A stretch of 26,099 nucleotides of DNA from a virus: positions 1 to 26,099 of IMG/VR virus record IMGVR_UViG_3300027816_000367; one strand, written 5' to 3'. Of this stretch, positions 7,392 through 19,446 are shown in pieces. The notes beneath the pieces were generated by a model. That model had not been told where the DNA came from, ran no database searches, and was given only the letters and a program-made list of their open reading frames with translations. The position numbers and the translations under genes are program-made. The first letter of the stretch is position 1, and every line of letters starts with the position of its first letter.

Positions 7392-7936
7392 CAGACAAAG
7401 CGTTTCTTGCGCTGATGGCAGGACTTATTGCGTGGGGGCTATATCTACTACGCCCCCGCCCCGATAGTGCGGCAGACGAGCGTATAGCGCAATTGGAGGG
7501 GCGCGTGGTCGAGCTACAGCATCAGTTAGATATGGCGGTTATCAAGAGCAACGACGCCGCTATCAAGGTGAACGTGGCGCGAAACGCTATCAAGACGCCC
7601 GACTTTCGCTTATCGGTAGACAGCGCGATGTATGTGGCGCTCGACAGCACGGCAACTATCAAGGAACTACGAGTCACGCTTATCAAGACCGTCGAGCAAG
7701 CGGAGCAATATCAGGTCGAGGTCTTGCGCTATCAAGAAGCGGTTGACACTATGGTGGTAGCGCATGTGCAAGAGCGACAGGCGTTTAGCGAAACGATTGA
7801 TACGCTACGCGCATTGGTTCAGGCATCAGCGCCGACGCCATGTAGCTACTTGGGGCTACGGTGTCCTAATCGAAGCACCGCGTTTGTACTTGGCGTTGTG
7901 TCTGCCTTCGTCTTGACGCTCGCGGTGGTATTGTAG
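7388..7936 (+). CDS. Membrane-anchored coiled-coil protein, spanin-like
   Basis: A 182-residue protein with an N-terminal hydrophobic helix (about 4-22, followed by RPRP), a long charged helical region with heptad-like spacing (about 29-60 and 95-145), a small Cys-containing loop (PCSYLGLRCP) and a second hydrophobic helix at the extreme C-terminus (about 163-182). Its ATGA overlap with the endolysin makes it the third member of the lysis cassette. That position and the periplasmic coiled coil fit an inner-membrane spanin or a unimolecular spanin-like protein that helps fuse inner and outer membranes. It has no lipobox, so it is not a classical unimolecular spanin, and a C-terminal transmembrane helix is unusual. 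The role is inferred. Confidence 0.6.
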   Translation: MTDKAFLALMAGLIAWGLYLLRPRPDSAADERIAQLEGRVVELQHQLDMAVIKSNDAAIKVNVARNAIKTPDFRLSVDSAMYVALDSTATIKELRVTLIKTVEQAEQYQVEVLRYQEAVDTMVVAHVQERQAFSETIDTLRALVQASAPTPCSYLGLRCPNRSTAFVLGVVSAFVLTLAVVL

Positions 7937-7948
7937 GAGATGCCGACG

Positions 7949-8176
7949 ATGCCTGATTGCGTGCGTGTGATTTGTCCCGACTGCGGTGGGACGTCTACCG
8001 ATAGCCATTTCCCTGCGTGCGGGTGGTGCATGGACGGCGGGTTCGTGGATGTGGACCGCAACGCCGATGGGTCGGTGCCGCTACTGCACACCGATGGACG
8101 ATTGGTGCATCTATACATTCCCCCTGCGTCGCCGTTCGATGCCACTCCGCCACGACCATATAGCGTGGTCGCGTAA
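7949..8176 (+). CDS. Small zinc-ribbon-like protein
   Basis: A 75-residue protein. Two Cys pairs, CPDC near the N-terminus and CGWC about 13 residues later, suggest a small zinc knuckle or ribbon. The rest is acidic and then Pro-rich. I chose ATG 7949 because AGGAG at 7935-7939 lies 9 bases upstream; the in-frame ATG at 7940 touches that Shine-Dalgarno and would be badly spaced. The 3' end overlaps the start of the metallophosphoesterase gene by 38 bases in another frame. The function is unknown; nucleic-acid binding is possible but not shown. Confidence 0.6.
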   Translation: MPDCVRVICPDCGGTSTDSHFPACGWCMDGGFVDVDRNADGSVPLLHTDGRLVHLYIPPASPFDATPPRPYSVVA

Positions 8177-9464
8177 CGAACTGGCGCGTTGCCAGTTTTT
8201 TACCTCGCTTGGCTATAGCGCGGCAGATACGGCGTCGCGCCTCAACACCGAGTTTCACGATAGCAACGCGGTACGCGGCGAAGCGTCGGTCAAGATGGTA
8301 CGGCAGAAGCAGGGCTGGAAGGTCGGGCCGAAAGCCAAAGCGCCGTTGCCCGACGTGCCGGGAAAGGAAACGGAACAAGAAGTTCAGCACAGCGCCACGG
8401 AGTCGGGCATCGAAGCGCGGTCGAATGGCAAGCGCATTAAGACGGTGGACGATTTGCTGAAGCATATCGGCGCCGACCTGACCAAGTTCGAGGTCGCGGA
8501 AAGTCAGGCGACCAAGTACGAAGTGGCAACCAAAGACCCAAGCACGGGCAAAGTCAGCACGACCGAACTGCACCGCGTGTTCGTCAAGCTTCGCCCAAAG
8601 GCGGGGCCAAATATCTTGGAAGCGGTTGAGGCGTTGATTGCGGGAGCGTACAGCAAACGACGTACAGTCGTGACGCGACGCGTTACGAACGCCACAAGCG
8701 ACACGCTTCATGCTCTTGTGTTGGCGGACCCACACATTGGCAAGTACGCGTGGGGAAAGGAAACAGGTTGGGAGGACTACGACATCACGATTGCCACGCG
8801 CTTGATTCGTGAGTCGGTGGCAGAGTTGTTAGACACCAAGCAACCCGCTGGCAAGTTAGCGTTGTGGTGCTTGGGCGACATCTTGCATTACGACACACCG
8901 CACGGTACGACGACCAAAGGCACGCCACTCGACCGCGATGGGCGCGTCGAGAAGATGTTGGAGGAAGCCGTCGCCACGTTGTGCGATGTGATTACGGACA
9001 TGAGCAAGCGTGCGTCAGTGGATGTGGTGTTGGTTCCCGGCAATCACGATGCGGTCATGACGGTGGCGTTGCGGCAAATTCTTTCCGCAGAATTCAGGGG
9101 ACACGCTGGCGTAACCATAAACACAACCAATACCACCCGTAAATACGTGACGCACGGGCGGTGTTTGATTGGATTGACGCACGGCGATAAAGCGCAAAAG
9201 CATTTGGGCGAGTTGATGGCGTTAGAGGCATCAACGTATTGGGGGATTGCCGCGTTGCGGGAAGTGCATCACGGGCATCGGCACAGCGAAGCGGCGGTCA
9301 CGACGGTCGGCGGCGTGACGGTACGCCAGCACCCTGCGCTCTGTCCACCCGACGGCTGGCATGCGATGGAGGGTTACGTTGGGGCGCCGAGAGCAATGGA
9401 CTCATACACGTATCATGCCGACGGTTATTTGGTGGGCATGACGCGAGCGACGGTCAAACCATGA
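8139..9464 (+). CDS. Calcineurin-like metallophosphoesterase with N-terminal HTH-like region
   Basis: A 441-residue protein from ATG 8139. All motifs of the metallophosphoesterase superfamily are visible in order: ADPHIG (D197, H199), LGDILH (D247), PGNHDA (N302-H303-D304), LTHGD, and GHRH (379-382). This set is found in Mre11/SbcD-type nucleases and other phosphodiesterases and binds two metals. The first ~50 residues (WSRNELARCQFFTSLGYSAA…) look like a helix-turn-helix of the kind that counts residues against a DNA target, followed by a polar linker. Open frame continues back to 7986, but that part overlaps the previous gene and reads as its out-of-frame shadow, so the start at 8139 (38-base overlap) is preferred. 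Likely a DNA exonuclease or phosphatase used in phage replication or host DNA breakdown. Confidence 0.82.
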   Translation: MPLRHDHIAWSRNELARCQFFTSLGYSAADTASRLNTEFHDSNAVRGEASVKMVRQKQGWKVGPKAKAPLPDVPGKETEQEVQHSATESGIEARSNGKRIKTVDDLLKHIGADLTKFEVAESQATKYEVATKDPSTGKVSTTELHRVFVKLRPKAGPNILEAVEALIAGAYSKRRTVVTRRVTNATSDTLHALVLADPHIGKYAWGKETGWEDYDITIATRLIRESVAELLDTKQPAGKLALWCLGDILHYDTPHGTTTKGTPLDRDGRVEKMLEEAVATLCDVITDMSKRASVDVVLVPGNHDAVMTVALRQILSAEFRGHAGVTINTTNTTRKYVTHGRCLIGLTHGDKAQKHLGELMALEASTYWGIAALREVHHGHRHSEAAVTTVGGVTVRQHPALCPPDGWHAMEGYVGAPRAMDSYTYHADGYLVGMTRATVKP

Positions 9465-9691
9465 GCGAGCGTGCGGTATGCCGTGATTGGTCGCCTATCC
9501 CGTGCGCCGAGCGGAAGGCGGCACGCGAGCGCGGCGACATCAATTACGTCTGGGGATTGGGGTGGGTATGGTGGAAGTCGAAGGACGTCACGCAACGGTG
9601 GGAGCGTTGCCCGTGGTGCGACGGCTTATTGCCCACGATGGAAGGGATTGTGAAGCACGGCATTCTTTACGGGTGGCCCGACCATGACTAG
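9461..9691 (+). CDS. Small Cys/Trp-rich hypothetical protein
   Basis: A 76-residue protein starting at ATG 9461, which overlaps the metallophosphoesterase stop (ATGA). It has many tryptophans (GLGWVWWKSKD) and four cysteines, including a CPWC knuckle in the C-terminal half that could bind zinc with Cys7 and Cys15. The 3' end overlaps the next gene by 8 bases. I do not recognise the family. Its tight coupling suggests it is expressed with the metallophosphoesterase. Confidence 0.65.
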   Translation: MSERAVCRDWSPIPCAERKAARERGDINYVWGLGWVWWKSKDVTQRWERCPWCDGLLPTMEGIVKHGILYGWPDHD

Positions 9692-9971
9692 ACGCAAGAC
9701 GAATCCGTTTACAAATCGGAAGGCGACGGTCAGCGTGCATCGCAACGGATTGAGCATTGAGATATCCGACGTCGCGGCAACCGATAGCGGGGCGGTGGCA
9801 AAGGAACTACTTGACATGGTGCGCACGTTGATTCAGGCGGGATACGAGGAGCTTATCGTTGACGCTGGCTCATTGCACGGTGGCGGCTTCGAAACGCCCG
9901 ACGAAGATGACGGCGAAGATTTCGTCTTGCCCGTTGAAGCCAAGCGACGCCCAATGGGGTTCCGCGTGTAG
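9684..9971 (+). CDS. Hypothetical protein
   Basis: A 95-residue protein. The N-terminus is basic (MTRRKTNPFTNRKATV), the middle is a mixed beta/alpha segment (VSVHRNGLSIEISDV… AKELLDMVRTLIQAGYEELIVD) and the C-terminus is acidic (DEDDGED) and then basic. There is no membrane segment and no Cys. It starts 8 bases before the previous stop and is the last gene before the long non-coding block, so it ends the late/lysis-side transcription unit. Family unknown. Confidence 0.6.
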   Translation: MTRRKTNPFTNRKATVSVHRNGLSIEISDVAATDSGAVAKELLDMVRTLIQAGYEELIVDAGSLHGGGFETPDEDDGEDFVLPVEAKRRPMGFRV

Positions 9972-9972
9972 C

Positions 9973-9999
9973 GTAAGTCGTTGGTAGGCAATAGCTTAC
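9973..9999. promoter_or_regulatory. 27-bp palindromic operator, copy 1
   Basis: Inverted half-sites GTAAGTCGTTG (9973-9983) and CAATAGCTTAC (9989-9999) are separated by 5 bp. A second copy with the same half-site and the same spacer length lies at 14303-14329. Each copy begins with the identical 13-mer GCGTAAGTCGTTG and sits at the head of an intergenic region, just upstream of a TTGAC-type -35 sequence. This is the expected look of a dimeric repressor or activator site; the binding protein is unknown. Confidence 0.65.
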
Positions 10000-10022
10000 A
10001 CCGTACGTAGCCGCGTGTAATA

Positions 10023-10051
10023 TTGACTGTGCAATGTCGTCAGAAGCATTG
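10023..10051 (+). promoter_or_regulatory. Weak promoter-like sequence before the non-coding block
   Basis: TTGACT (10023-10028) matches a sigma-70 -35 box in five of six positions and follows the palindrome by 23 bp. The -10 is poor: GCATTG at 17-bp spacing. The case rests on its position between the operator and the hairpin-rich block, and on the shared TATTGAC with the second operator region. Confidence 0.3.
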
Positions 10052-10070
10052 CATCGTAGGAACAAGTGAT

Positions 10071-10138
10071 GGCCCCGCAAGTATCTCTTGGTGTTTCGGC
10101 ACCCTTCTGACAAGAGAGAACGCGGGGCCGTTTCTTTT
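10071..10138 (+). terminator. Extended nested hairpin with U-tract
   Basis: GGCCCCGC (10071-10078) pairs with GCGGGGCC (10122-10129), followed at once by GTTTCTTTT. Inside, TCTCTTG (10084-10090) pairs with CAAGAGA (10111-10117), and GTG/CAC closes a TTTCGG loop. The nested, fully consistent pairing plus the T-rich tail looks like an intrinsic terminator with an unusually long arm, or a small RNA that carries its own terminator. It would end a transcript started near 10050 or stop read-through from the genes before it. Confidence 0.55.
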
Positions 10139-10598
10139 GGGGGTTGTCAACTCAACTTGTAAAGGTTCGGGCTTACTCTCGGTTTCCCGAACGTCATGTA
10201 ATCCGATACGTGACGAGCAATCTTAACCGTGCTTGCGCCTCTTGATGAAAACAAATCCACGCTCTGTCTGCCTACAACGTGGTCGGTCGTTTTAAGAGTG
10301 CGCAGGGAGCAACACGGTGGCATCGCATCACCGTAGGTCACCCGTCGAGGGATTGCGTACGTGGACCCCCGTACCAACGCAGACGGCCCCAATGCGAGAC
10401 TTCGGACTTGACTCTGCTTCACCCCGTTGCGTTGCGCGTCAACGACCGGGAATGGCCGGGGTCTGGTCACCAACTCAACCTATCGCGTGATGCTATACGT
10501 TAAGTGTTGCGAATCGTCGGTAAAGGTTTAGCGATACCGACAAATGACAACCACGTTTGCTATTCGCCGCGCTCCGCTATATCGTGTAGTCGCAACGT

Positions 10599-10649
10599 TC
10601 CCGCGCTCCGTGTCGGGGGATACAGAAATCGCGGGACTTGCCAAGCCCG
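10599..10649 (+). promoter_or_regulatory. Alternative hairpins upstream of the terminator (attenuator-like)
   Basis: TCCCGCG (10599-10605) pairs with CGCGGGA (10630-10636), with an inner CTCCG/CGGGG stem. A competing stem joins CGGG-A-CTT (10632-10639) to AAGCCCG (10643-10649). It takes bases both from the first hairpin and from the left arm (CCCG 10646-10649) of the terminator that follows. Three mutually exclusive stems in a row are the layout of an attenuator. The middle stem is short, with a 3-base loop and a bulge, so this remains tentative. Confidence 0.35.
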
Positions 10650-10680
10650 TCACTCTTGACCGAGTGGCGGGTTTGTTTTT
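10646..10680 (+). terminator. Strong intrinsic terminator
   Basis: CCCGTCACTC (10646-10655) and GAGTGGCGGG (10662-10671) form a 10-bp stem with one G-U pair around the 6-base loop TTGACC, followed by TTTGTTTTT (10672-10680). This is the clearest rho-independent terminator in the window. It separates the non-coding block from the promoter and genes that start at 10726. Confidence 0.88.
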
Positions 10681-10725
10681 ACAAGTCTTTACAAGCCAAC
10701 GGTTTACACGATACCTCACGGAGTA

Positions 10726-10754
10726 TTTACAAACGGCGCGGGTTTTGATATTGT
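10726..10754 (+). promoter_or_regulatory. Sigma-70-type promoter for the early cluster
   Basis: TTTACA (10726-10731), a 17-bp spacer and TATTGT (10749-10754), preceded by TG at the extended -10 position. It lies 27 bases upstream of the ATG at 10782, between a strong terminator and the first gene of the 10782-14283 cluster, as expected for that operon's promoter. Confidence 0.6.
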
Positions 10755-10763
10755 GTTGCTACC

Positions 10764-10777
10764 CCCTCACACGGAGA
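10764..10777 (+). promoter_or_regulatory. Leader/RBS motif, variant copy
   Basis: CCCTCACACGGAGA just before the ATG at 10782 is a variant of the CAACCCCGACACGGAGA leader found before three genes at 14378, 15217 and 15470. The GGAGA part is the Shine-Dalgarno, 4 bases from the start codon. Confidence 0.55.
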
Positions 10778-10781
10778 ACCC

Positions 10782-11030
10782 ATGCAAGAGATTGAATGCC
10801 CGACCTGTGGGAAGCCAATGGAAGTCAGCGTCTACTATTCGCCGCCTGACCCGTCGGTTGGTCTATCGCACGATTACGAAGTCACGATTGTCGATGCCGA
10901 GTGCGACCATGAATTCACGGACAAGCAACACGAAGAAGTATTCAACGGCTTGTGGGACAGACAGCAAGAAGCGAACGCCGCCAACTACGAAGATGAGCCG
11001 CGCTACGCACGGGGCTACGATGACTTATAA
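10782..11030 (+). CDS. Small acidic protein with an N-terminal CxxC
   Basis: An 82-residue protein. It opens MQEIECPTCGKPMEV, a single CPTCGKP zinc-knuckle-like motif, with possible further ligands in DAECDHEF and KQHEE. The C-terminus is strongly acidic and Tyr-rich. It is the first gene after the promoter at 10726 and has the leader-type ribosome-binding sequence (ACGGAGA). Its end overlaps the next gene by 11 bases. First genes of early phage operons are often small host-takeover or regulatory proteins, but no specific function can be read. Confidence 0.7.
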   Translation: MQEIECPTCGKPMEVSVYYSPPDPSVGLSHDYEVTIVDAECDHEFTDKQHEEVFNGLWDRQQEANAANYEDEPRYARGYDDL

Positions 11031-11296: not shown

Positions 11297-11932
11297 ATGG
11301 GCATCATCAAGTTGGTCAACGAAGGCGACACGCACACGATGTTGATTGCGGATTGCAAGGAAGTGGCTGGCAATTATGGCGCACAAGTATTGTTTAGCGA
11401 TGGCACCGATTCGCTCTATCTGCCAAAGGAATCTGCCGACCGCCAGTTGACGCGCATGGGTGCCGACTATTCCAGCGTCGAAGGGTTGATGCTCACGTTC
11501 AGCCGCGACCCCAACCCGAAGAAAGGCGCGAAGCCGTATTGGGGCATCAGCTACGCGGGGACGGAAGCACCCGCCAACAAAGCGTCGCCACGTGTCGAAG
11601 CGCCGAAGTCAGCGTCATCTACGAATAACCCTGTTCAGCCCCGACGCGACGCGATTCTCGCGCAGTATCTCATGCTGTGGGATACGATTGCGGGACACTT
11701 TCAAGTCGTGTGCGACAACCGCAACATCACGCTCGACGCCAGCGCGATTCAAGCCGCCGTTGCGACGGTGTGGATTTCATGGAAGGATAAGGGACTACAG
11801 CCCGACGGATTGCCTGACGCAAAGCCCGTCGAGCAACCACCTGAAATCAAGATGCCAGCCCCAAGCGGAAAGCGATTGGCACCGCCCGTGGTACCCGATG
11901 CGCGTCCCGGCGACGACGACTTACCGTTCTGA
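11297..11932 (+). CDS. SSB-like single-stranded DNA-binding protein
   Basis: A 211-residue protein starting at ATG 11297, 6 bases after AAGGAG. The first ~90 residues are beta-rich with the pattern of a small OB-fold (GAQVLFSDGTDSLYLPKESA; LTFSRDPNPKKGAKPYWGI). A Pro/Ala-rich linker, a helical middle part and a second Pro-rich linker follow. The last residues are GDDDLPF, nearly identical to the acidic DDDIPF tip by which bacterial SSB recruits its partner proteins. The tip, the linkers and the N-terminal pattern together support a phage SSB-like protein that coats single-stranded DNA and uses host SSB partners. The helical middle part is not part of a standard SSB. Confidence 0.68.
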   Translation: MGIIKLVNEGDTHTMLIADCKEVAGNYGAQVLFSDGTDSLYLPKESADRQLTRMGADYSSVEGLMLTFSRDPNPKKGAKPYWGISYAGTEAPANKASPRVEAPKSASSTNNPVQPRRDAILAQYLMLWDTIAGHFQVVCDNRNITLDASAIQAAVATVWISWKDKGLQPDGLPDAKPVEQPPEIKMPAPSGKRLAPPVVPDARPGDDDLPF

Positions 11933-12141: not shown

Positions 12142-12568
12142 CGTCGAGTACGAACTGCACCGCAAGTATCAAGCGCGGGTCGAGCCGTCCACGATTGGCG
12201 GATTGTTCGCCGCCGCTGTCGAGCAAGTCGAGGAATACGATACCATCAAAAAGCAATGGTGGCGTTGGCATCGGGCGAACCCGCACGTGTACGAATTGTT
12301 TACACGCTTCACATTTGACGTTATCAAGCGTGGGCATAAGCACTATTCTAGCAAGGCCATCTTTGAGCGCATTCGTTGGCACACGGACATCGAAACGGCG
12401 GGAGAAGAATTCAAGATGAGCAACAACTACACGCCGTACTATGCGCGATTGTTTATGAAAGACTTTCCCGACCACGCGGATTTCTTTCGCACCAAGACGT
12501 TGCGTAGTGACGACGACCCTGCGGCTGGCATCCCCCAACCCGCCCGATTGGGCCGGAGTGTGATATGA
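12134..12568 (+). CDS. Conserved phage hypothetical protein
   Basis: A 144-residue protein from ATG 12134. The core (WWRWHRANPHVYELFTRF; IRWHTDIETAGEEFKMSN; YYARLFMKDFPDHADFFRTK) matches the pattern of a protein I know from many phages and prophages, in which a host-like RIRW and NNxxPxYAR segment recurs and ends in FFxTRxL. The biochemical role of that family is not established. The protein is highly helical with no membrane segment. It follows the previous gene by overlap, and its stop overlaps ATG 12565 (ATGA). Confidence 0.7.
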   Translation: MDDVEYELHRKYQARVEPSTIGGLFAAAVEQVEEYDTIKKQWWRWHRANPHVYELFTRFTFDVIKRGHKHYSSKAIFERIRWHTDIETAGEEFKMSNNYTPYYARLFMKDFPDHADFFRTKTLRSDDDPAAGIPQPARLGRSVI

Positions 12569-17226: not shown

Positions 17227-17840
17227 TACGCGCATCGGTGTTGATTGCGTCCCATCGGTCGCAATTCTTACAACGTGCCATTGATTCCGTCATGGCGCAG
17301 ACGCTTCCGCGTCACGAATTGCAATTGCTCGTCAACTATTCGCCCGACCCTGAACTCTTTCTGACCAACTGGAACGAGTTGTGTAGCATTGCGAAGGGCG
17401 AGTTCGTCTGCATCTTGGGCGACGATGACACGTTGGAACCACGATATATAGAAAGTTGTATAAAGTGGTTAGAACTTACGCAGGGTGACATCGCGTATAC
17501 GCAAGTCATGGGACGCAACGGTGACGGCAAGCCCACGGGCGTCTACGTTCCGCCATCCGTCATTACGCTTGACACGATGCGGCACGGAAATCACATCTGG
17601 TCAAGCTCAATCGTCAGGCGCGAGCTTTGGCAACGTGTGCATGGCTACGACATGAACATCCCCTACGTTCATGACTACGACTTTTGGGTGCGCTGTTTGC
17701 AAGCGGGTGCCGTTGCCAAGTACGTTCCCATTATTGGCTGGAACCATTACGCGCACAACGAAGGCCGCGTGACCACGACAAGCGACCACCGCGAAGCGTG
17801 GCGCATCTTTGACGAACGCCATCCGGGATATAGACTGTGA
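17223..17840 (+). CDS. Family-2-type (GT-A fold) glycosyltransferase
   Basis: A 205-residue protein. MIRASVLIASHRSQFLQRAIDSVMAQ is the standard opening strand and helix of GT2 enzymes, and CILGDDDTLEP with D67-D69 is the metal-binding D-x-D region. The later IPYVHDYDFWVRCLQAG segment matches the ED/DxxFWxR part where the catalytic base sits. The length is short for GT2 but complete for the catalytic domain. It opens the cluster with the ParB-like and ABC-GNAT proteins. Targets could be modified DNA bases, as in some phages, or surface glycans. Confidence 0.82.
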   Translation: MIRASVLIASHRSQFLQRAIDSVMAQTLPRHELQLLVNYSPDPELFLTNWNELCSIAKGEFVCILGDDDTLEPRYIESCIKWLELTQGDIAYTQVMGRNGDGKPTGVYVPPSVITLDTMRHGNHIWSSSIVRRELWQRVHGYDMNIPYVHDYDFWVRCLQAGAVAKYVPIIGWNHYAHNEGRVTTTSDHREAWRIFDERHPGYRL

Positions 17841-18349
17841 ACATTCAACGCTATCCGTTGCGCGACATCAAGCCCAACCCCAACAACCCGCGCATCATCA
17901 AGGACGACAAGTTCCAAAAGCTGGTGCAAAGCATCAAAGATTTTCCGCAAATGTTGGAGCTACGGCCCATCATCGTCAACGCCGACTTGACGGTGCTTGG
18001 CGGCAACATGCGTTTAAAGGCGTGTCAAGCGGCGGGTCTGACGGAAGTGCCTGTCGTGCGTGCCGATGCGTTGACGCCCGAACAGCAACGCGAGTTCATC
18101 ATCAAAGACAACGTGGGCTTCGGCGAATGGGATTGGGACGCGCTCGGCAATGAATGGGACATGGATGAGTTGTCGCGTTGGGGCGTAGACATCCCCACGT
18201 TTCCCGAAGCGTCAGAGCAGAGCGCACCGCCCGAACTGGATGGAACAACGTTTCAAGTGATTGTCGTTTGCAAATCAGATATTGAGCAAGGCAACATTGC
18301 CTCCGAATTGGAACAACGAGGGTTTGAATGTCGGCTATTGACGTTGTAA
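17837..18349 (+). CDS. ParB/sulfiredoxin-like domain protein
   Basis: A 170-residue protein from GTG 17837 (GTGA overlap). Residues 1-100 are a ParB-like fold: PNPNNPRIIKDDKFQKLVQSI, then PIIVN and the signature GGNMRLKA (55-62) at the nucleotide-binding loop. IIKDNVGFGEWDWDALGNEW and EELxxWG-like MDELSRWGVDIP are the C-terminal features typical of phage ParB-like domains that are elsewhere joined to DNA methylases. Here the methylase is absent, and the next gene, overlapping by 22 bases, is the ABC-GNAT protein. Likely binds DNA or nucleotides as part of a modification system or nuclease. No partition ParA partner is present. Confidence 0.78.
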   Translation: MNIQRYPLRDIKPNPNNPRIIKDDKFQKLVQSIKDFPQMLELRPIIVNADLTVLGGNMRLKACQAAGLTEVPVVRADALTPEQQREFIIKDNVGFGEWDWDALGNEWDMDELSRWGVDIPTFPEASEQSAPPELDGTTFQVIVVCKSDIEQGNIASELEQRGFECRLLTL

Positions 18350-19446
18350 TCGAAAGCACGCCTTCGCGTTCTATTCGTGCGCGTCAGATTGAAGCGATGT
18401 TTGATGTACCAATGCAGACGACGCAACGCTTGGAGTGGAAAGGCGACGCGCCCATCAATGAGCGTCCGTGGAACGTTGGACTTATTGTCGGCCCATCAGG
18501 GTGCGGCAAGTCTACCATTGCCAAGCATTTGTTTGGTGATGCGATGGCGCAACGTTTTACGTGGAACGGTGCCAGCGTCATTGATGATTTCCCAAGCAAC
18601 GTTGGCATTGACAACATCTCCGCTATTTGTCAGGCGGTCGGGTTTAATACGATTCCCGCATGGCTTCGCCCGTTTAATGTGTTGTCAAATGGCGAACAGT
18701 TTCGCGTATCGCTTGCACGCACGTTGATTGAGTCTGGCAACTTGGCGGTCGTGGATGAGTTTACGTCCGTTGTTGATAGACAAGTCGCCAAGATTGCGTC
18801 ACACGCGGTGCAGAAATACGTGCGCAAGCAACAGACGCAATTCGTGGCGGTGTCGTGTCACTACGATATCATCGAATGGTTGCAACCAGATTGGGTGCTG
18901 GAACCCGCGACGATGCAATTCCAATGGAGGGCGGTTCAACGACGACCCACTCTCAATGCAACACTCTGTCGGGTTCCGTATGCCTTCTGGCAACTATTCG
19001 CTCCCTATCACTATCTGACCAGTTCGCTCAATCGCTCGGCGGCGTGCTATTGTCTCTTTGTCGAAGGGCAACCCGCCGCGTTTGGCGGCATGCTGTATCG
19101 TCCACACCCCAAAGTCACGAACGTCTATGGCTTAAGTCGTCTTGTCACGTTGCCAGACTATCAAGGGCTTGGGTTGGCATTCGTCTTGACAGACGCATTA
19201 GCGATGGCATTCAAAGCATTAGGCCAACGCTTTCACACATACCCTGCGCATCCCGCGTTGATTCGTTCCTTTGACCGCTCACTCAAATGGCGCATGGAGA
19301 AACGTCCCGGCGTCTGGTCGGCACGCTCAACGACTAGCTTTAGCGAAGGCGGACGCCCGTGCGCTGTGTTTGAGTACGTCGGCGCACCAATGAATGACAA
19401 GACAGAAGCGCAACGTTTGCTTGCCATTCCGCGTTTGTGTCAGTAA
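18328..19446 (+). CDS. ABC-type ATPase fused to a GNAT-like acyltransferase
   Basis: A 372-residue protein. N-terminal ABC-type ATPase: Walker A GPSGCGKST (55-63), signature-like LSNGEQ (119-124), Walker B LAVVDEF (139-145, catalytic E144) and switch His H178. C-terminal GNAT-like domain, about 212-340: a characteristic HYLTSSLN, then PAAFGGMLYRPHP, and the acyl-CoA loop PDYQGLGL (276-283). This domain order matches the known class of ABC ATPases fused to a predicted acetyltransferase (COG2401), encountered in phages and archaea. There is no transmembrane part, so it is not a transporter. Phage Mu Mom, a DNA-modifying enzyme, also has a GNAT-like fold, so a DNA-modification role is an inference worth testing. 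GAGGG precedes the ATG. Confidence 0.8.
   Translation: MSAIDVVIESTPSRSIRARQIEAMFDVPMQTTQRLEWKGDAPINERPWNVGLIVGPSGCGKSTIAKHLFGDAMAQRFTWNGASVIDDFPSNVGIDNISAICQAVGFNTIPAWLRPFNVLSNGEQFRVSLARTLIESGNLAVVDEFTSVVDRQVAKIASHAVQKYVRKQQTQFVAVSCHYDIIEWLQPDWVLEPATMQFQWRAVQRRPTLNATLCRVPYAFWQLFAPYHYLTSSLNRSAACYCLFVEGQPAAFGGMLYRPHPKVTNVYGLSRLVTLPDYQGLGLAFVLTDALAMAFKALGQRFHTYPAHPALIRSFDRSLKWRMEKRPGVWSARSTTSFSEGGRPCAVFEYVGAPMNDKTEAQRLLAIPRLCQ

Follow-up and report, generated by a model that had tools for sequence, protein, structure and literature searches.

A conserved pseudoknotted core RNA and its separable leader in a gene-free block of a phage genome

The stretch of DNA analysed here (the window) is a virus record of 26,099 bases that is probably incomplete. 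Between two small genes at 9684-9971 and 10782-11030, both conserved in relatives, lies the block 9972-10781, which an initial annotation made from the sequence alone took to be free of genes and proposed as one large structured RNA. Upstream of it is a gene for an SbcD-like exonuclease (8175-9464), the product of which matches the PHROG entry ‘DNA repair exonuclease’, and downstream an ORF at 11297-11929 encodes an SSB-like protein with predicted strands and a DDDLPF C-terminal tip. Searches of Pfam and PHROG gave no match to this protein, and AlphaFold2 prediction followed by Foldseek yielded weak OB-fold matches, none at E 0.001; the C-terminus is DDLPF or a close variant in 19 of 19 aligned sequences. 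Further along, going by sequence reading only, the ORF at 18328-19446 looks like a fusion of an ABC-type ATPase with an acetyltransferase-like domain, and is adjoined by a ParB-like ORF (17837-18349). The block itself comprises three elements:

10022-10139, + strand: structured leader (5' domain) of about 115 nt, defined by alignment A3 (14 sequences) and matches to covariance model R2
10160-10468, + strand: core RNA of about 300 nt, running from hairpin P1 to pseudoknot D, defined by 26 homologues (alignment A2), covariation and covariance model R1
10557-10680, + strand: third element, including its promoter-like site

A single RNA of 810 nt must be rejected, because the leader and the core are separable in relatives, where genes may be inserted between or after them, and because the third element has a promoter-like site of its own; the block instead holds a core, a separable leader and a third unit. 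Its gene-free character, on the other hand, was correctly recognised: among the 26 homologues of the core, any given frame is fully open in 4 at most, and with no conserved reading frame a protein-coding block can be discarded. Folding energy is a poor guide here. Relative to shuffled sequences the whole block gives z -2.93 on the + strand and -3.84 on the - strand, while the core alone (z -0.63) is no stabler than its shuffles; as both strands of the block beat shuffles and the core does not, folding energy was rejected as proof of structure, and evidence was therefore sought in homologues.

The starting set consisted of 23 related viral loci, gathered by way of the SbcD-like exonuclease gene. 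BLASTN of the block against these loci revealed that 10168-10466 is conserved independently, at varying positions and, in L018 and L020, in reversed orientation. Pattern scans of IMG/VR brought the number of distinct core homologues to 26 (alignment A2), and the covariance model of the core, R1, which was built in the present analysis (R2 being that of the leader), found two divergent members, L055 and L057, at 100 bits, so that at least 28 distinct sequences keep the core. Each positive record carries one convincing copy according to R1. Among contigs new in a scan with the 5' motif, L074 is real and L071 represents a fragment at the edge of the contig L006, while L069, L070, L072 and L073 are chance matches. 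The divergent members (L055, 80-322; L057, 1689-1931, minus strand) form a subtype that shares the 5' hairpins and differs in the middle, and in which a small HNH endonuclease gene directly follows the core. A host or bacterial origin of the core can be set aside, given that an exact pattern, run on 84,980 species genomes of bacteria and archaea, returned no match, and a looser pattern, run on the same genomes, returned three chance matches in unrelated sequence. The isolated phages searched gave no core match and the plasmids searched only short chance pieces.

RNAalifold applied to the core gave 60 pairs, of which 28 show compensatory changes. A pseudoknotted model was derived by inspecting column covariation, and its features are as follows:

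10165-10192, + strand: hairpin P1 (GUUCGGG/CCCGAAC), 5 of 7 pairs changed on both sides, p 2e-7
10177-10184 (P1 loop) with 10444-10451, + strand: candidate pseudoknot A, 96% paired and nearly invariant
10193-10214, + strand: hairpin P2, 7 of 8 pairs significant, p 1e-31
10202-10206 (P2 loop, UCCGA) with 10402-10406 (UCGGA), + strand: pseudoknot B, p 8e-7
10232-10306, + strand: P3 arm (P3a-P3e), with invariant segments
10315-10333, + strand: hairpin P4, p 1e-3
10323-10328 (P4 loop, UCGCAU) with 10392-10397 (AUGCGA), + strand: pseudoknot C, 4 of 6 pairs significant, p 1.5e-14
10342-10346 with 10382-10386 (10342-10386 overall), + strand: P5, enclosing P6, p 0.005
10357-10361 with 10370-10374, + strand: hairpin P6, its stem rewritten in most members with pairing always kept
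10365-10369 (P6 loop, ACCCC) with 10458-10462 (GGGGU), + strand: pseudoknot D, p 1.4e-6

On A2 this model has 66 pairs in 12 helices, with 97.0% of cells paired and compensatory changes in 39 of the 66 pairs. Its covariation score, 0.432, compares with 0.037-0.063 for control versions slid along the alignment (in which 29-47% of cells are paired) and was reached by none of 500 shuffles, the alignments having been built by sequence and the core structure having been read in part from the same alignment as was used for the scoring. Pseudoknot D adds five further pairs (95.4% paired, score 0.521). A more demanding comparison came from a tree-based null resembling that of R-scape, in our own short implementation, in which the substitutions assigned by parsimony on a FastTree tree are replayed on random columns and columns are compared by a G-test, with average-product correction applied. 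Of the 43,660 column pairs in total, four were significant at E 0.05, every one of them in the model, and at E 1 the model contained 11 of 12; when only the model was tested, 16 of its 71 pairs were significant, as against none in any slid version. The core thus displays covariation beyond phylogeny, a property expected of a structured ncRNA.

Taken individually, P1, P2 and pseudoknots B, C and D are each well supported. The pair 46-253 illustrates the kind of change involved, being CG in 13 sequences and GC in 13. Pseudoknot A remains a candidate, since its near-invariance leaves it without covariation support (helix p 0.56). P6 was misaligned by MAFFT, and a pairing given by RNAalifold between columns 69-71 and 161-163 was dropped in favour of P4, in which the inner pairs covary. 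The ten-pair long-range helix picked out earlier (10234-10243 with 10294-10304) is essentially P3a/P3b (10232-10245/10292-10306) of the structure that covariation supports, and many stems do coexist in the block, as had been proposed: the core has 15 helices, counting P6 and the four pseudoknots, and the leader five. A further hairpin, GTCGGTA/TACCGAC at 10506-10550, lies just 3' of the core; the window, L005, L007 and L056 retain it, and close relatives such as L003 and L006 lack it.

When the pairs are read on the + strand, G-U outnumbers A-C by 107 to 14 (7.6-fold), from which it follows that the RNA is the + strand. This excess and the covariation across homologues bear out the original suggestion that the block encodes structured RNA. 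They also weigh heavily on the notion that what is conserved is an element acting as DNA (a replication origin, or a packaging or recombination site) with hairpins that are merely RNA-like; proximity to the SSB-like gene and the SbcD-like exonuclease gene would suit such an element, but a 7.6-fold preference for G-U is expected for RNA and not for DNA, and several long-range pseudoknots covary, so that we consider this explanation extremely improbable.

The leader, which lies 5' of the core in the window, has an architecture of its own:

10031-10036 with 10047-10052, + strand: hairpin H1
10039-10046, + strand: 5' partner of a kissing loop, GUCAGAAG, pairing with 10104-10111
10071-10078 with 10122-10129, + strand: terminator-like GGCCCC stem
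10080-10083 with 10118-10120, + strand: AGUA/GAA internal loop
10104-10111, + strand: 3' partner of the kissing loop, CUUCUGAC, pairing with 10039-10046

In A3 (n=14), 92% of cells are paired and 13 of 35 pairs show compensatory changes, five of the 35 being significant against the tree-based null; the folding energy gives z -3.66. The strongest helix is the kissing loop, which joins the loop of the first hairpin to an arm of the second and has 5 of 8 pairs changed on both sides (p ~5e-10), the two partners reading GUCAGAAG/CUUCUGAC in the window, CUCGAAAG/CUUUCGAG in L005 and UUCACGG/CCGUGAA in L034. The AGUA and GAA strands are invariant and lie opposite each other, and we take them to resemble a bulged-G motif of the sarcin-ricin or loop E-like kind. 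R2 matches occur at most once per record and always at this locus. L017 and L019 have a leader without a core, the leader there preceding an ORF, and L018 and L051 have a core with no detectable leader; leader and core are therefore linked but separable.

As to transcription signals, the candidate promoter for leader and core in the window is a weak one that was read by eye, and the best site that the scan found in the window is a different, non-significant one. The sites concerned, together with the third element, are:

9996-10023, + strand: candidate leader/core promoter, TTACAC-16-TAATAT
10557-10585, + strand: promoter-like TTGCTA-17-TATCGT of the third element, from the sequence scan
10590-10680, + strand: third conserved element, about 90 nt, outside the core RNA and ending in a terminator; alignment A5, six relatives
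10642-10680, + strand: intrinsic terminator, at the 3' end of the third element

At the same place as 9996-10023, relatives have clear TTGACN-16/17-TANNNT sites. In most members in which the leader directly precedes the core, a sigma-70-like site is found 147-171 nt 5' of the core, although not all of these sites beat shuffles. In L018 and L051, where no leader is detectable, the best promoter-like site is 36 nt 5' of the core, as if transcription were to start at P1. A further promoter-like site occurs 8-140 nt 3' of the core in most members, and no intrinsic terminator is found directly 3' of the core. The strong terminator that had been taken as one boundary of the large RNA belongs instead to the third unit, which has its own promoter-like site. 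This unit may be a small RNA in its own right, about 90 nt long; its promoter-like site, a conserved CUCCGUGUCGGGGGA segment and its terminator all recur in L003 and L005-L009.

A search of the whole window against Rfam at gathering level produced no match, and permissive searches with the block and three homologues produced chance matches or none, the weak hits (MS2 operator, CrfA, miRNAs) being of the former kind. Rfam 15 comprises 4227 models, including ribozymes, riboswitches, introns, RNase P and tmRNA, none of which matched at either level, though a permuted relative could escape such a search. The impression formed by eye that no known consensus fitted, GOLLD and ROOL among them, was thus accurate. 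With a conserved, covarying fold and no known family matched, the core is a new class of viral RNA, filed under no known family; the suggestion that it might be one has come through the Rfam search, the analysis of homologue covariation and the check for a conserved protein frame alike. What is new is the RNA class; ornate phage RNAs of elusive function have, as a kind, their precedents. Large computational surveys of phage contigs could already list this family as an unnamed candidate.

GOLLD is phage-encoded, intergenic and pseudoknot-rich, with a conserved 3' region and a less conserved 5' region; many of its RNAs are longer than 800 nt, and their usual place is close to tRNA islands (PMC12286853). 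The core resembles it in being phage-encoded, intergenic, pseudoknot-rich and non-coding, and in the better conservation of the 3' than of the 5' region, but is only about 300 nt long, has no tRNA near the window copy, and, like its three homologues searched, does not match the Rfam model. ROOL, found in phages and prophages, likewise has multiple pseudoknots and no known protein partner, and one example is 659 nt long (PMC12286853); the core is likewise a phage RNA with several pseudoknots and no known protein partner, but it is about 300 nt long, the neighbourhood is different and again the Rfam model is unmatched. GOLLD, ROOL and OLE form homo-oligomers (PMC12286853), which raises the question of whether the core, with or without its leader, might self-assemble into an oligomer or cage. 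It is phage-encoded, rich in pseudoknots and apparently independent of protein, and some of its covarying loop-loop pairs could in principle be intermolecular. However, it is smaller than either ROOL (659 nt) or GOLLD (many over 800 nt; PMC12286853) and matches neither in Rfam, and self-assembly would seem distinctly unlikely.

The nearest precedent as regards neighbourhood is STAXI, a short pseudoknot that occurs in two or three repeats close to genes for SSB, antirestriction and other DNA-handling functions (PMC2864571). The core shares with it the pseudoknotting and the proximity to SSB and DNA-handling genes, and differs in being a single 300-nt fold present once per record, with no tandem copies among the repeats of the block and no match to the Rfam model. 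For the leader, a comparison of position can be made with the put-type antitermination leaders of lambdoid phages, in which a structured RNA comes immediately after a phage promoter; the likeness is one of position, and the present leader differs in its kissing loop and AGUA/GAA motif.

RNA-positive phages for which the contig is long enough share a cassette of endolysin, SbcD-like exonuclease and SSB-like genes. The core is no more than about 2 kb away from the SSB-like gene, preceding it in the window group and following it in L013, L015, L026, L039, L051, L056 and L074. These phages have two portal types, that of the window and that of P22. ARAGORN called no tRNA or tmRNA in the window; a tRNA-Gln is near the core in L015 and L056, and a T-arm-like GGTTCGATTCC stretch, possibly a degenerate tRNA though ARAGORN does not call it as one, stands just before the core in L013 (about 12210-12270) and in L074 (minus strand, about 7812-7880).

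The genes that adjoin the core encode C5 or N6/N4 methyltransferases, DUF5843 proteins, and PD-(D/E)XK-like or HNH proteins, and the downstream gene is not constant. A methyltransferase (C5 or N6/N4) or DUF5843 gene stands exactly between leader and core in L006, L007, L008, L009, L030 and L057, and a C5 methyltransferase gene follows the core in L022, L029, L035 and L046. The nuclease-type genes (HNH, PD-(D/E)XK-like, DUF5843) that are adjacent in several members, together with the variable position and orientation of the core, its dense pseudoknots and its invariant single-stranded segments, might suggest a ribozyme, or else the RNA component of a mobile element, homing or transposing, that moves together with these genes. 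Such an origin seems to us quite doubtful, as ribozyme and intron models are unmatched, no copy is inserted within a gene, no nuclease family is constant, and there is one copy per record.

A better case can be made for a cis-acting role of leader and core together, as an attenuator or riboswitch-like switch of cotranscribed accessory genes (those for methyltransferases, nucleases and the SSB-like protein). A promoter-like site precedes the leader, an arm of the leader's terminator-like stem takes part in the covarying kissing loop, and in L017 and L019 the leader precedes an ORF with no core present; moreover, most members have an ORF next to the core on one side or both. A DUF5843 or methyltransferase ORF carries the core at its 3' end in L006-L010 (L007 included), L030 and L057, and an ORF starts soon after the core, with no clear promoter, in L025, L026, L034, L055 and L057, so that cis roles are possible in those members. 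Against this, the core is inverted in L018 and L020 and is placed before, after or between different genes, the neighbouring genes belong to unrelated families, and in most members a fresh promoter-like site lies between the core and the next gene. On this evidence a switch acting in cis appears fairly unlikely.

The reading that we prefer, and to which we would give about an even chance, is that the block encodes an undescribed class of phage ncRNA in which the pseudoknotted core would most likely be a stand-alone RNA acting in trans, with a leader of attenuator-like or antiterminator-like type. The conserved structure of the core, its strand and non-coding nature, its single copy, its changing position and the promoter-like sites on both sides have direct support. 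From those promoter-like sites, the inversion, the changing neighbours and the single copy we infer action in trans, and transcription, a binding partner and the role of the leader are inferred too. Some facts point the other way: there is the missing terminator directly 3' of the core, some cores lie behind a methyltransferase or DUF5843 gene, and L017 and L019 retain a leader but no core. In the window, moreover, the terminator-like stem of the leader stands between promoter and core, and transcription of the core would therefore need read-through.

On such a trans-acting scheme the transcript would start near 10030, and the leader of about 115 nt would be made first and close on itself by its kissing loop, after which the core of about 300 nt would fold up compactly, three or more covarying pseudoknots holding it together. 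It might then act as a stable scaffold or decoy, binding a host or phage factor during infection; genes for SSB/recombination and for DNA modification occupy the same locus. The leader itself, which is promoter-proximal and has a covarying kissing helix, looks like a cis-acting attenuator or antiterminator of the unit in which the core usually sits. That the core, as an independent RNA of about 300 nt with several pseudoknots and a leader that can be separated from it, works in trans specifically in the counter-defence and recombination locus of a lineage of uncultivated phages, for instance as a decoy or scaffold directed against a host defence or recombination factor, is put forward tentatively, being in our view possible though on balance unlikely.

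It is rare for a large structured RNA to show covarying tertiary contacts, and of the classes described before, several have proved to be ribozymes, riboswitches or RNA-only assemblies. The core belongs to no curated family, is still one orphan RNA class among others, and adds to the evidence for undescribed RNA classes in uncultivated phages. Its secondary and pseudoknot structure is ready for mutational tests, and its place beside SSB-like, exonuclease and methyltransferase genes makes a role in counter-defence or replication directly testable.
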